A model generated the notes under the pieces. The model saw nothing but the letters and a program-made list of their open reading frames with translations. It was not told the origin of the DNA and did not search any database. Below, piece after piece: positions 44,781 through 54,654 of a DNA stretch of 64,000 nucleotides. Every line of letters starts with the position of its first letter. Position 1 is the first letter of the stretch. Origin of the DNA: Maribacter algarum (ex Zhang et al. 2020) (GTDB taxonomy: Bacteria; Bacteroidota; Bacteroidia; Flavobacteriales; Flavobacteriaceae); NCBI RefSeq assembly GCF_005885635.1, contig NZ_VATY01000003.1, positions 414,507-478,506 on the forward strand. Reading direction: 5' to 3'. A program made the translations under genes and the position numbers.

Positions 44781-44800
44781 ATTCCTGCCTTCGCAGGAAT
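44781..44800 (+). repeat. 20-bp palindrome, variant copy, between trpF and trpB
   Basis: ATTCCTGC-CTTC-GCAGGAAT, a perfect 8-bp stem. Against the other copies (ATTCCCGC/GCGGGAAT) it has a C-to-T change in one arm and the matching G-to-A in the other. This paired change keeps the stem and suggests that the hairpin matters. Confidence 0.85.
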
Positions 44801-44814
44801 GAAAATAAATTGTT

Positions 44815-45996
44815 ATGTACCACGCAGACGAAAAAGGATATTACGGAGAATTTGGTGGCGCTTTTATTCCAGAAATGCTCTATCCAAATGTAGAAGAGTT
44901 ACGGCAAAAATATTTGGATGTCATGTACGAAGAATCCTTTAAAAAGGAATTCAATCAACTACTCAAAGATTATGTAGGACGACCTTCTCCACTCTATTTT
45001 GCAAAAAGACTATCTGAAAAGCATGGATGCAAAATCTATTTAAAACGAGAAGATTTAAATCATACCGGAGCGCATAAAGTGAACAATACCATTGGTCAGA
45101 TTCTAATGGCTCAAAAATTGGGAAAAACAAGAATTATTGCTGAAACTGGTGCTGGTCAACATGGTGTCGCCACGGCAACAGTTTGTGCCCTCATGGGTAT
45201 GGAATGTATTGTCTACATGGGGGAAATCGATATTGCTCGTCAAGCACCCAATGTAGCGCGAATGAAGATGCTAGGAGCCAAGGTACGACCAGCATTTTCA
45301 GGGAGTCGTACCCTCAAAGACGCTACTAATGAAGCCATTCGCGACTGGATAAATAATCCCGTGGATACACATTATATCATTGGTTCAGCCATTGGCCCAC
45401 ACCCCTACCCTGATATGGTGACGCGTTTTCAGTCTGTTATCTCTGAAGAAATAAAATGGCAATTGAAAGAAAAAGAAGGACGTGAAAATCCAGATTATGT
45501 GGTTGCTTGTATTGGCGGAGGAAGTAATGCCGCAGGGACCTATTATCATTTTTTAGACGAACCCGAAGTTGGTATTATTGCAGTTGAAGCTGCTGGTAAA
45601 GGAGTTGAAACAGGCGAAAGTGCAGCTACTTCCGCTTTAGGAAAAGTCGGTATTATACATGGCTGTAAAACCATGTTGATGCAAACTGCTGATGGGCAGA
45701 TTACAGAACCGTATTCCATCTCTGCAGGATTGGATTACCCAGGCGTCGGACCCATGCACTCGCATTTGCATAAGTCTGGCAGAGCGGAATTCTATTCTGC
45801 GACAGATGATGAAGCCATGACTGCAGGACTAGAACTTTCACAATTAGAAGGAATTATTCCGGCGATTGAAACCGGACATGCATTTGCCATTTTTGACCAC
45901 AAGAAATTCAAACCGGATGACGTAGTGGTTATTAGTCTTTCAGGGCGTGGGGATAAGGACCTCAACACCTACATTGACTATTTCGGGTTAAAATAA
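44815..45996 (+). CDS. trpB: Tryptophan synthase beta chain
   Basis: 393 residues. The PLP lysine lies in [13 protein letters not shown]; the phosphate-binding glycine loop is [30 protein letters not shown] and the C-terminal LSGRGDKD are typical of the TrpB1 form that pairs with TrpA. It joins indole and serine. In this operon it is separated from trpA by about 430 bases that hold a GIY-YIG gene and palindromes, while the earlier genes are packed tightly. Confidence 0.98.
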
Positions 45997-46002
45997 TTTT
46001 TC

Positions 46003-46022
46003 ATTCCCGCGAAGGCGGGAAT
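46003..46022 (-). repeat. 20-bp palindrome, left end of the GIY-YIG unit
   Basis: ATTCCCGC-GAAG-GCGGGAAT, a perfect 8-bp stem, 6 bases after the trpB stop. On the minus strand it reads GATTCCCGC...GGGAATGAAAA, the same orientation rule as the other copies. Confidence 0.9.
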
Positions 46023-46050
46023 CCCTCGAAGCAAGCAGAATGCTTATGAA

Positions 46051-46326
46051 ATGAAACGGTATTATATCTGCATATTAACCAACAAAAATCATACGGTATT
46101 GTATGTAGGAATGACAAATAATCTGAAATTGAGACTAGAACAACATCAATCAAAAGATAATAAAGGGTTCACAAAAAAATATAGCGCACACAAACTAGTC
46201 TATTTTGAAAAAACGCAATATGTGAATAACGCTAACAAAAGAGAGAAACTAATAAAAGGCTGGAGACGGCAATGGAAAGAGAATCTCATAAATGATATGA
46301 ATCCAGACTGGGAAGACCTTTCTTGA
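46051..46326 (+). CDS. Small GIY-YIG endonuclease-like protein
   Basis: 91 residues, a stand-alone GIY-YIG domain of the UPF0213/YhbQ type. The GIY and YIG motifs appear as YYI (4-6) and YVG (18-20). The likely catalytic Arg28 is in NLKLRLEQH, and the metal-binding Glu65 is in NKREKLIKGWRRQWKE, so an active nuclease is plausible. It starts at ATG 46051, 29 bases after one palindrome, and ends before the degenerate and intact palindromes at 46349-46407. It has no role in tryptophan synthesis and interrupts the trpB-trpA junction in phase with the operon's transcription. Housekeeping repair functions have been proposed for some family members, so a selfish role is only one option. Confidence 0.85.
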   Translation: MKRYYICILTNKNHTVLYVGMTNNLKLRLEQHQSKDNKGFTKKYSAHKLVYFEKTQYVNNANKREKLIKGWRRQWKENLINDMNPDWEDLS

Positions 46327-46346
46327 ATGTTAGGAGATTAAGAAAC

Positions 46347-46372
46347 AGATTCCCGCATTAAAGTAGGAAATC
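46347..46372 (+). repeat. Degenerate copy of the 20-bp palindrome
   Basis: It begins with the typical AGATTCCCGC and ends with GGAAATC, but the second arm and loop have decayed. It lies 20 bases after the GIY-YIG stop and 15 bases before the intact right-hand copy. Confidence 0.5.
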
Positions 46373-46387
46373 AGGCAACTAGGACAG

Positions 46388-46407
46388 ATTCCCGCCTTCG
46401 CGGGAAT
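46388..46407 (+). repeat. 20-bp palindrome, right end of the GIY-YIG unit
   Basis: ATTCCCGC-CTTC-GCGGGAAT, a perfect 8-bp stem preceded by ACAG and followed by GACAAAAAA. It is the inverted partner of the copy at 46003-46022 and lies 17 bases before the trpA start. Confidence 0.9.
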
Positions 46408-46424
46408 GACAAAAAACAGTGTTA

Positions 46425-47189
46425 ATGAACAGAATAAACGAAAAACTAAACTCACAAGGAAAACTCCTCTCCATATATTTCACAGCGGGATATCCAGCGC
46501 TTAACGATACCGTTAAAATCATTCAAGATTTAGAAAAAAACGGTGTAGATATGATTGAAATTGGTTTGCCCTTTAGCGACCCTTTAGCTGACGGCCCAAC
46601 CATTCAAGATAGCTCTACTGCCGCATTGAAAAATGGAATGACCACCGAAAAACTCTTTGAACAATTAAAAGACATTCGAAAATCGGTTTCAATTCCATTG
46701 ATTGTTATGGGCTATTTCAACCCCATGTTACAATATGGAGTTGAGGCTTTCTGCAAAAAATGCCATGAAATTGGTATCGACGGAATTATCATGCCAGATT
46801 TACCCTTAGATGTTTATGAGGACAACTACAAAGCCACTATTGAAAAATATGGACTCGTGAATGTTTTCCTAATTACACCTCAAACAAGTGATGAGAGAAT
46901 CCGTCAAATCGATACCGCTTCCAATGGATTCATCTACATGGTAAGCTCAGCAAGCGTGACAGGTTCCAAGTCAGGTTTTGGAAATGTACAAACCAAATAC
47001 TTTGAACGTATTGCACATATGAATCTTAAAAATCCGCAAATCGTGGGTTTTGGAATTAAAGATTCTGAGACTTTTCAACAAGCTACAAAAAATGCAAAAG
47101 GAGCAATTATAGGCTCTGCTTTTATTAAGCATTTGACTACTAATGGAGTAGCAGGAATTGGCAGTTTTGCAAAAAGTATCAAAAGTTAA
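46425..47189 (+). CDS. trpA: Tryptophan synthase alpha chain
   Basis: 254 residues from ATG 46425; a GTG two codons earlier is also in frame but less likely. The catalytic Glu and Asp lie in DMIEIGLPFSDPLADGPTIQ. IYFTAGYPALNDT opens the barrel, and VSSASVTGSKSGF and GFGIKDSETF are the phosphate-binding blocks. It cleaves indole-glycerol phosphate and channels indole to TrpB. It is the last gene of the operon; no strong terminator follows. Confidence 0.98.
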   Translation: MNRINEKLNSQGKLLSIYFTAGYPALNDTVKIIQDLEKNGVDMIEIGLPFSDPLADGPTIQDSSTAALKNGMTTEKLFEQLKDIRKSVSIPLIVMGYFNPMLQYGVEAFCKKCHEIGIDGIIMPDLPLDVYEDNYKATIEKYGLVNVFLITPQTSDERIRQIDTASNGFIYMVSSASVTGSKSGFGNVQTKYFERIAHMNLKNPQIVGFGIKDSETFQQATKNAKGAIIGSAFIKHLTTNGVAGIGSFAKSIKS

Positions 47190-54610: not shown

Positions 54611-54634
54611 TAGTTGAATAGGTTTTTCTTTTTC

Positions 54635-54654
54635 ATTCCCGCGAAGGCGGGAAT
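54635..54654 (-). repeat. 20-bp palindrome, intact copy
   Basis: ATTCCCGC-GAAG-GCGGGAAT, identical to the copy at 46003-46022, 15 bases past the stop of the UDG-like gene. On the minus strand it follows the same flank rule (AGGA-GATTCCC ... GAATGAAAAA). Confidence 0.9.

Follow-up and report, generated by a model that had tools for sequence, protein, structure and literature searches.

The GTAG REP/RAYT and REPIN systems are organized around small palindromes and one enzyme, with pairs of palindromes that lack the enzyme found elsewhere. GIY-YIG nucleases, for their part, are known in free-standing form as homing endonucleases of the I-TevI and T4 Seg types. CGTC REPs were described by Di Nocera in 2013 and reported in five phyla (PMC3733652). 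According to the accessible parts of that paper, a CGTC REP has an unpaired CGTC/TGTC-type tag at one end and a tail that is mostly CCA, with an 8- or 9-bp stem whose first pairs are A-T and a 4- or 5-nt loop; the repeats occur mostly as one-orientation pairs and include Neisseria dRS3 and Rickettsia RPE-4 and RPE-6. The same parts state that these REPs "apparently lack a dedicated transposase", report no tyrosine transposase gene flanked by CGTC REPs and, for other transposases, no more than a few associations, described as fortuitous, and do not contain the term GIY-YIG. YhbQ and YazA have been placed with Slx1, which acts with Slx4, in the accessible text of another paper (PMC7017083); from similarly partial texts, GIY-YIG nucleases of unknown function are mentioned in one (PMC10928387) and a GIY-YIG gene and a RAYT are listed apart in a single gene table in another (PMC9465073). 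GIY-YIG is absent from the accessible parts of a REP survey of 2025 (PMC12306157) and of PMC6006769, and no paper among the matches listed from the open-access literature, preprints excluded, ties GIY-YIG to REPs.

We analyzed a 64,000-nucleotide stretch of the Maribacter algarum genome (the window) in which trpE to trpF are close-packed, whereas trpB (44815–45996, + strand) and trpA (46425–47189, + strand) are split by an insert between the stop codon ending at 45996 and the trpA ATG at 46425, as the first-pass annotation had described. The left REP (46000–46022, + strand; hairpin 46003–46022) begins a few bases past the trpB stop codon and consists of the tag TTC followed by ATTCCCGC-GAAG-GCGGGAAT; the tag is GTC in the orthologues of three congeners (G004, G005 and G006). 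The nuclease ORF of 91 amino acids comes next (46051–46326, + strand). The right REP (46388–46410, − strand; hairpin 46388–46407) reads ATTCCCGC-CTTC-GCGGGAAT and then GAC, which is GTC on the − strand, with TGTC/GTC at its 5′ side. Both tags face outward. A decayed copy, already noticed beside the right repeat, lies inside the right end at 46349–46371 (− strand). The two ends had been called perfect 20-bp palindromes in opposite orientation; their positions and orientation stand, and each is a hairpin, with arms of 8 bp and a loop of 4 nt, rather than a full palindrome. The direction of each hairpin in the window is set by its loop and its outer GTC or TTC tag.

The repeat also occurs in the window without a nuclease, again in agreement with the first-pass annotation. 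One solo REP (44781–44803, − strand; hairpin 44781–44800) lies within the 38 bases between trpF and trpB and has the form ATTCCTGC-CTTC-GCAGGAAT with the tag TTC, with two differences; the other (54632–54654, + strand; hairpin 54635–54654) has the tag TTC followed by ATTCCCGC-GAAG-GCGGGAAT. Genome-wide, ATTCCYGCNNNNGCRGGAAT is found at 15 sites in 5.1 Mb, compared with 0 for a reversed-pattern control, and a looser TTCCYGC form at 18, compared with 1. As these counts lie far above the control, the repeat is not a product of chance. The 15 copies are mostly solo. Both REPs of the insert have the shape of family 1 CGTC REPs, an 8-bp stem starting A-T, T-A and a 4-nt loop, together with a CGTC-type tag (unpaired GTC/TGTC on the right, TTC on the left). 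Their unpaired tails are CCC and CTG, CCA being common in the broad locus set described below. The GTAG tag is absent from the REPs of the window, in which the tag is GTC or TTC.

The ORF matches the Pfam GIY-YIG family with 53.9 bits (cut-off 22.6). Its predicted structure (pLDDT 94.5) has the GIY-YIG fold, with UPF0213 (1zg2, E 1.1e-4) as the best match and Slx1 and UvrC as weaker ones at E 0.02 and weaker, and sequence profiles agree with these structural matches (UPF0213, then Slx1 and UvrC). PDB titles present Slx1 as a handler of branched DNA, an activity with which recognition of hairpins or cruciforms by the modeled nuclease would fit. The gene is under purifying selection (dN/dS 0.02–0.06 in eight pairs, dS being near saturation in some). 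A role in a defense system was considered and dropped, the PADLOC matches being weak only.

The catalytic residue set of GIY-YIG enzymes comprises two tyrosines, an arginine, a glutamate and an asparagine. Among 43 aligned proteins including that of the window, Tyr18, Gly20, Arg28, His32, Glu53, Glu65, Asn84 and Trp87 are invariant; of the catalytic set, Tyr18, Arg28, Glu65 and Asn84 are thus present in 43/43, and the first tyrosine, residue 7, in 42/43, the window copy alone having cysteine there and being without one member of the set. A looser alignment of 206 proteins has tyrosine in 196, a gap in 9 and cysteine in 1, which is taken to be the window's own locus. The earlier description of the nuclease as apparently intact holds for Arg28 and Glu65 and fails at the GIY tyrosine; because Cys7 replaces that residue, the window's enzyme may be impaired.

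An initial look at the surroundings of the gene took in 29 own-family loci and 7 genus loci with 400-bp flanks, the family being Flavobacteriaceae, as gene content also suggests. The own-family test set then consisted of 60 further loci, hand-picked from the homologue matches, and 271 control ORFs from the same loci. The best inverted match between the 250-bp flanks had a median score of 31 at the test loci and 19 at the control ORFs, and a score of at least 28 was reached at 38/60 test loci versus 15/271 controls (p = 2e-20). Outward GTC-tagged hairpins stood on both sides of 21/60 test loci versus 0/271 controls and on any side of 29/60 versus 15/271; inward hairpins stood on both sides of 6/60 versus 0/271. 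Of the 60 loci, 26 had an outward hairpin on the left and 24 on the right, compared with 10 and 10 for inward ones. GTC tags were present at 50 of the 120 flanks, whereas seven other tags gave 0 to 10 of 120. In this strict scan, 31/60 test loci had no outward GTC hairpin, many of them having other or eroded repeats.

A broad set came from a contig scan with five proteobacterial proteins, from which the best 80 of at least 590 matches were taken; 74 of these 80 had at least 120 bp on each side and were kept (L197, L202, L211, L231, L244 and L247 were dropped). Going by their record titles, they come from Proteobacteria, Planctomycetes, Anaerolineae, Nitrospira, Bacteroidetes, Patescibacteria and other groups. 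At the 74 loci kept from the best 80, compared with 425 control ORFs, outward GTC-tagged hairpins occurred on both flanks of 47 (controls, 2) and on any flank of 70 (controls, 47), inward hairpins on both sides of 15 (controls, 4), and the median inverted-repeat score was 47 (controls, 18). Restricting the controls to isolated ORFs left the result in place: both-sided outward hairpins were found at 1/44 isolated controls versus 47/74 broad-set loci from the best 80, and at 0/29 versus 21/59 own-family loci, one locus having been dropped for a short flank. The first-pass annotation had suggested asking whether homologues are palindrome-flanked more often than random genes, and in both sets the answer is yes. 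We regard the association between nuclease and hairpins as established at the level of sequence.

The same arrangement was seen on plasmids. A plasmid collection held 34 records with a homologue, 12 of which were examined: within 400 bp, tagged hairpins point outward from both flanks in seven (L159, L160, L161, L165, L166, L168 and L169) and from one flank in one (L164), and in four the scan of these flanks gave no outward tagged hairpin (L158, L162, L163 and L167). Around L158, L162 and L163 lie S. meliloti two-hairpin elements and GTCAT-type repeats in Planktothrix and Spirosoma. The A. lipoferum unit sits between sufB and sufC. As separate observations on these loci, two-hairpin elements stand upstream of the nuclease gene in S. 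meliloti Ak57 (L158; three) and Sinorhizobium sp. K101 (L170; one); the gene of the Planktothrix agardhii plasmid (L162) lies between an MmeI-type restriction gene and DISARM drmA; that of Neisseria gonorrhoeae (L161 and L239) is surrounded by clustered ATTCCC...GGGAAT repeats that match the known dRS3 type; and CP090106.1, NZ_CP119140.1 and NZ_AP026896.1, although filed as plasmids, are chromosome-like records of 2–5 Mb.

We sorted the flanking repeats into three classes, with a 4-nt loop, with a 5–6-nt loop, and of an imperfect GAAGCAATC-like type. The loop classes of the left and right repeats agree in 79 of the 89 loci having both (shuffled mean 44, maximum 62). On a tree of 99 own-family proteins (67 labeled, 30 unlabeled and 2 mixed; few alignment columns and many open forks), class changes number 7, compared with a shuffled mean of 27.4 and minimum of 22; for all 141 labeled proteins, 16 changes compare with a shuffled mean of 43.2 and minimum of 37. 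Paralogues of one genome can have different classes: 4-loop (L076 and L100) and 5-loop (L132) in G073, 4-loop (L089 and L101) and 5-loop (L126) in G057, and all three classes (L082, L099 and L117) in G242. L027 and the other members of the GAAGCAATC type form a second clade, framed by an imperfect GCGAGCGCAGCGAAGCAATC repeat family; the GCGAGCGCAGCGAAGCAATC family is very widespread.

Copy number was compared over 249 family genomes, using nuclease matches at E 1e-8 and the 4-loop repeat. The nuclease is patchy, occurring in 130/249. At least one repeat is found in 85/130 genomes with the nuclease versus 35/119 without, and at least 10 repeats in 30/130 versus 2/119 (Spearman 0.48), all these figures being uncorrected for shared descent; among the 119 genomes in which no nuclease matched at E 1e-8, 7 have at least five repeats.

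More distant GIY-YIG genes were also surveyed. None of the 14 such genes of the genus with less than 43% identity was labeled with one of the three repeat classes, and 8/14 had inverted repeats of other kinds (score at least 28), so the repeat partner need not always be the CGTC hairpin of these classes. Their use as a repeat-free control was rejected on the same count. The inverted-repeat framing may therefore reach beyond the clade studied; the framing of distant genes makes the linkage broader and less specific to one clade. The second gene of the same genome (L035, G000:C1:1154776-1155021) is framed by CTGTCATGTCGAGCGGAGTCGAGAC, with the GTCA side facing the gene; inverted repeats of other kinds, CTGTCATGTCGAGCGGAGTCGAGAC among them, also frame four further genes (L034, L040, L046 and L048), and the hairpin ACCTGCCTGCCGGCAGGCAGGT lies near two (L036 and L050). 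E. coli yhbQ, a chromosomal GIY-YIG gene so remote that neither of two queries matched it by tblastn, has no repeat flanks (inverted-repeat score 16).

We then compared the trpB–trpA junction across a genus set of 14 genomes, 9 with some nuclease homologue and 13 with trpA. Junctions without the unit, for which the first-pass annotation had suggested comparing strains, exist: 9 of the 13 genomes with trpA are without it and 4 carry it (G000, G004, G005 and G006; the nucleases of the three others are 87–92% identical, and the G005 junction is split over two contigs). Among the unit-less junctions, the trpB stop overlaps the trpA start in G003, G007, G009, G010, G011, G013 and on contig C2 of G008; G002 has a short gap and G012 a spacer of ~75 bp. 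A fixed trpB–GIY–trpA order is rejected for the genus by these 9/13 genomes. On contig C57 of G008 (L067), another repeat pair, GTCATTCCGAATG...GAAGGAATC and ...CTCGCAATGACA, stands at trpB–trpA with no nuclease, and since this pair is different, independent repeats reach the site. In G013, inverted hairpins also flank another homologue (51%) immediately upstream of trpE, and a tagged hairpin lies just upstream of trpB (L054:279), though the trpB–trpA junction of this genome is without the unit.

The order trpB–GIY–trpA recurs in 14 of 89 other own-family loci (L069–L157), namely L069–L080, L084 and L094, from 14 different genera; the unit at this place is therefore either old or repeatedly acquired. 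On a trpB+trpA tree with many unresolved forks, the filled or empty state needs 4 changes, and occupancy of the trp locus may reflect either descent with loss or repeated gain. We compared the hairpins of the four genus copies and of the 14 trp-resident loci minus L094. Their stems vary by compensated changes: of the 10 distinct right-hand sequences, 4 have G-C and 6 have T-A at pair 7, and 7 have C-G and 3 have T-A at pair 4. Pairing is neither standard nor wobble in 3 of the 64 left-hand cells, from 8 distinct sequences, and in 0 of the 80 right-hand cells. The trp-resident clade has the look of a conserved lineage and not of a jumping one. The nuclease copy at L080 has one internal stop, and a 4-loop nuclease unit at L104 (G044:C1) lies ~2 kb upstream of trpF and trpB.

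Signs of movement came from other loci. One gene junction was compared across 12 genomes of the genus to which G032 belongs, and the unit was present in 3: G032, G269, where it is inverted relative to its flanks, and G262, where copies are repeated. The 9/9 unit-less sites had no GTC-tagged hairpin within the stretch read. At the G032 site, three outward REP pairs follow one another: the first two belong to truncated units of ~245 bp, which carry part of the nuclease region, and the third to the full unit. In G267, three consecutive matches occur elsewhere, and G279 carries two adjacent complete units at a place with a single nuclease match in its relatives G057 and G277. Among 150 repeat rows listed for five genomes (for G073, 4 of 28 rows), 13 pairs lay within 200 bp, one self-overlapping pair being excluded; 12 of these were outward, 0 inward and 1 in the same direction, and all 13 are too short for a nuclease gene. 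Such close outward pairs are probably the HH dimers of the 2013 survey, as far as its accessible parts describe them (PMC3733652). In the trpB–trpA and G032-genus comparisons, neither a target duplication nor exact unit ends could be resolved, because the flanks of the unit-less sites are too diverged. The S. meliloti plasmids were also considered as a source of empty sites and set aside, with 4 records covering most of the query.

The first-pass annotation had suggested that palindromes bound a minimal element and that its partner enzyme is a nuclease with a fold other than that of RAYTs. The strong linkage of the homologues to such palindromes supports this proposal, neither of the two outcomes named there as refuting was observed, and the nuclease is likely to be the enzyme partner of CGTC REPs. 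We put at about three in four the probability that the insert is a REP–nuclease–REP mobile unit, copied by cleavage and host repair, from which solo and paired REPs derive. Two CGTC-type REP hairpins with outward tags would be the ends of the unit, and a stand-alone GIY-YIG nuclease with a UPF0213/Slx1-like fold its only gene. The nuclease would recognize its own REP class as an extruded hairpin, a cruciform or branched DNA and would nick or cut near the tag; host repair or recombination would then copy the unit, or its ends alone, to new intergenic places. Since GIY-YIG enzymes hydrolyze DNA and give no strand transfer, the copying step would have to come from the host. Outward REP pairs without a nuclease would be the miniature form and solo REPs remnants, and the trpB–trpA copy would be a member of a long-resident clade that is under purifying selection and has possibly been co-opted. 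The sequence comparisons show that the linkage is specific, directional and cross-phylum, that repeat class matches nuclease clade, and that copies differ by presence or absence, inversion, tandem growth and internal deletion. Against the mobile unit speak the 7/119 genomes that have at least five REPs and no nuclease match, the 31/60 test loci with no outward GTC hairpin in the strict scan and the other repeat kinds of 8/14 distant genes; the recurrence of the trp order in 14 other genera and the tyrosine lost from the window copy tell against a simple mobile picture.

Copying of the unit through hairpin cutting and host repair is our first choice of mechanism, and homing into REP pairs the second. 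In the latter case, the REPs would spread by other means, and a free-standing homing endonuclease would cut REP pairs and be copied between them by break repair; the REPs would be the target of the nuclease and not the ends of a unit. The profiles do resemble those of homing endonucleases (grpIintron_endo in 28/43 members, a GIY-YIG homing PHROG in 15/43), and the nuclease-less outward pairs found among the rows listed are possible targets. However, the 9/9 nuclease-less sites in the G032 genus have no REP pair, and the nine unit-less congeners have overlapping or short trpB–trpA junctions, except for the extra G008 contig with its other pair. The truncated nuclease fragments within the G032 REP pairs also suggest that miniature pairs are derivable from nuclease units. 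We consider homing unlikely.

It is considerably less probable that the nuclease is a resolvase kept by the host to cut REP hairpins or cruciforms, with local cutting and repair enriching REPs nearby. The patchy occurrence in the family, the single genomes whose paralogues have different REP classes (G073, G057 and G242) and the lack of such flanks at E. coli yhbQ speak against such maintenance, whereas the Slx1-like fold, the strong purifying selection, trp-operon residence across 15 genera and the larger number of REPs in nuclease-bearing genomes would be in keeping with it. That a RAYT or some other transposase mobilizes the unit in trans, the GIY-YIG gene being its cargo, is suggested by the resemblance of the arrangement to REP/RAYT units; we think it highly improbable, given 0 matches to Y1_Tnp, the RAYT-type transposase family, in the whole genome, when the positive control matched in 5/14 known genomes, and given the transposase associations of CGTC REPs cited above from the accessible parts of the 2013 survey. 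Mobilization by a RAYT within the same genome was rejected on the lack of a Y1 match. Least probable of all is that REPs collect in the intergenic space around small isolated genes in general or serve as terminators, the nuclease being incidental, for although any outward hairpin occurs at 47/425 control ORFs, the control ORFs, the isolated control ORFs, the inward direction and the seven other tags reject chance linkage, loop class tracks the protein tree, and left and right ends match.

Returning to the mobile unit, we lean slightly toward a broader proposition, that such units form a separate class of mobile elements over many phyla, whose sole enzyme would be a hydrolytic GIY-YIG nuclease of one domain that acts on tagged hairpins of its own class, and that this class would be the origin of the CGTC-REP superfamily. 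If so, breaks at hairpins would be filled with copies by host repair without strand-transfer chemistry, perhaps giving rise to further palindromic repeat families as well, and the trp-resident lineage would be such a nuclease co-opted by the host. With the association at hand, a protein of 90 residues and a hairpin of 30 nt are enough to put the question of the missing enzyme of CGTC REPs to the test. The proposition would add a REP system with an enzyme chemistry other than that of RAYTs, would point to a function for the many genes whose only name is "GIY-YIG nuclease family protein", and would be relevant to how known repeats such as dRS3 arose.

Compared with known systems, the nuclease shares with free-standing homing endonucleases a stand-alone GIY-YIG domain, a patchy distribution and weak profile matches, but it is a single domain of ~90 amino acids, usually framed by hairpins, and the unit-less sites at two loci are mostly without a visible target repeat. 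UPF0213/YhbQ/YazA and Slx1 are the closest folds, with solved structures, but E. coli yhbQ differs in being without repeat flanks. The S. meliloti two-hairpin elements are, we presume, comparable to rhizobial RIME elements, among which the nuclease gene would then lie (three upstream, and one in the relative); to our knowledge, no enzyme partner of RIME has been described. GTAG REP/RAYT (TnpA-REP) units and REPINs are alike in that palindromes bound a single enzyme gene, enzyme-less pairs occur elsewhere and repeat class matches enzyme clade, but their enzyme is an HUH tyrosine transposase and their tag GTAG, in contrast to the hydrolytic GIY-YIG nuclease, the GTC/TTC tag and the lack of a Y1 match here. 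CGTC REPs, as portrayed in the accessible parts of the 2013 survey, resemble the repeats described here in tag, stem and loop and probably in their paired copies, and S. meliloti, A. lipoferum, N. aromaticivorans, Neisseria and Micavibrio are common to that survey and to our nuclease loci; whereas those parts report no dedicated enzyme (PMC3733652), here a GIY-YIG nuclease lies between two outward copies.
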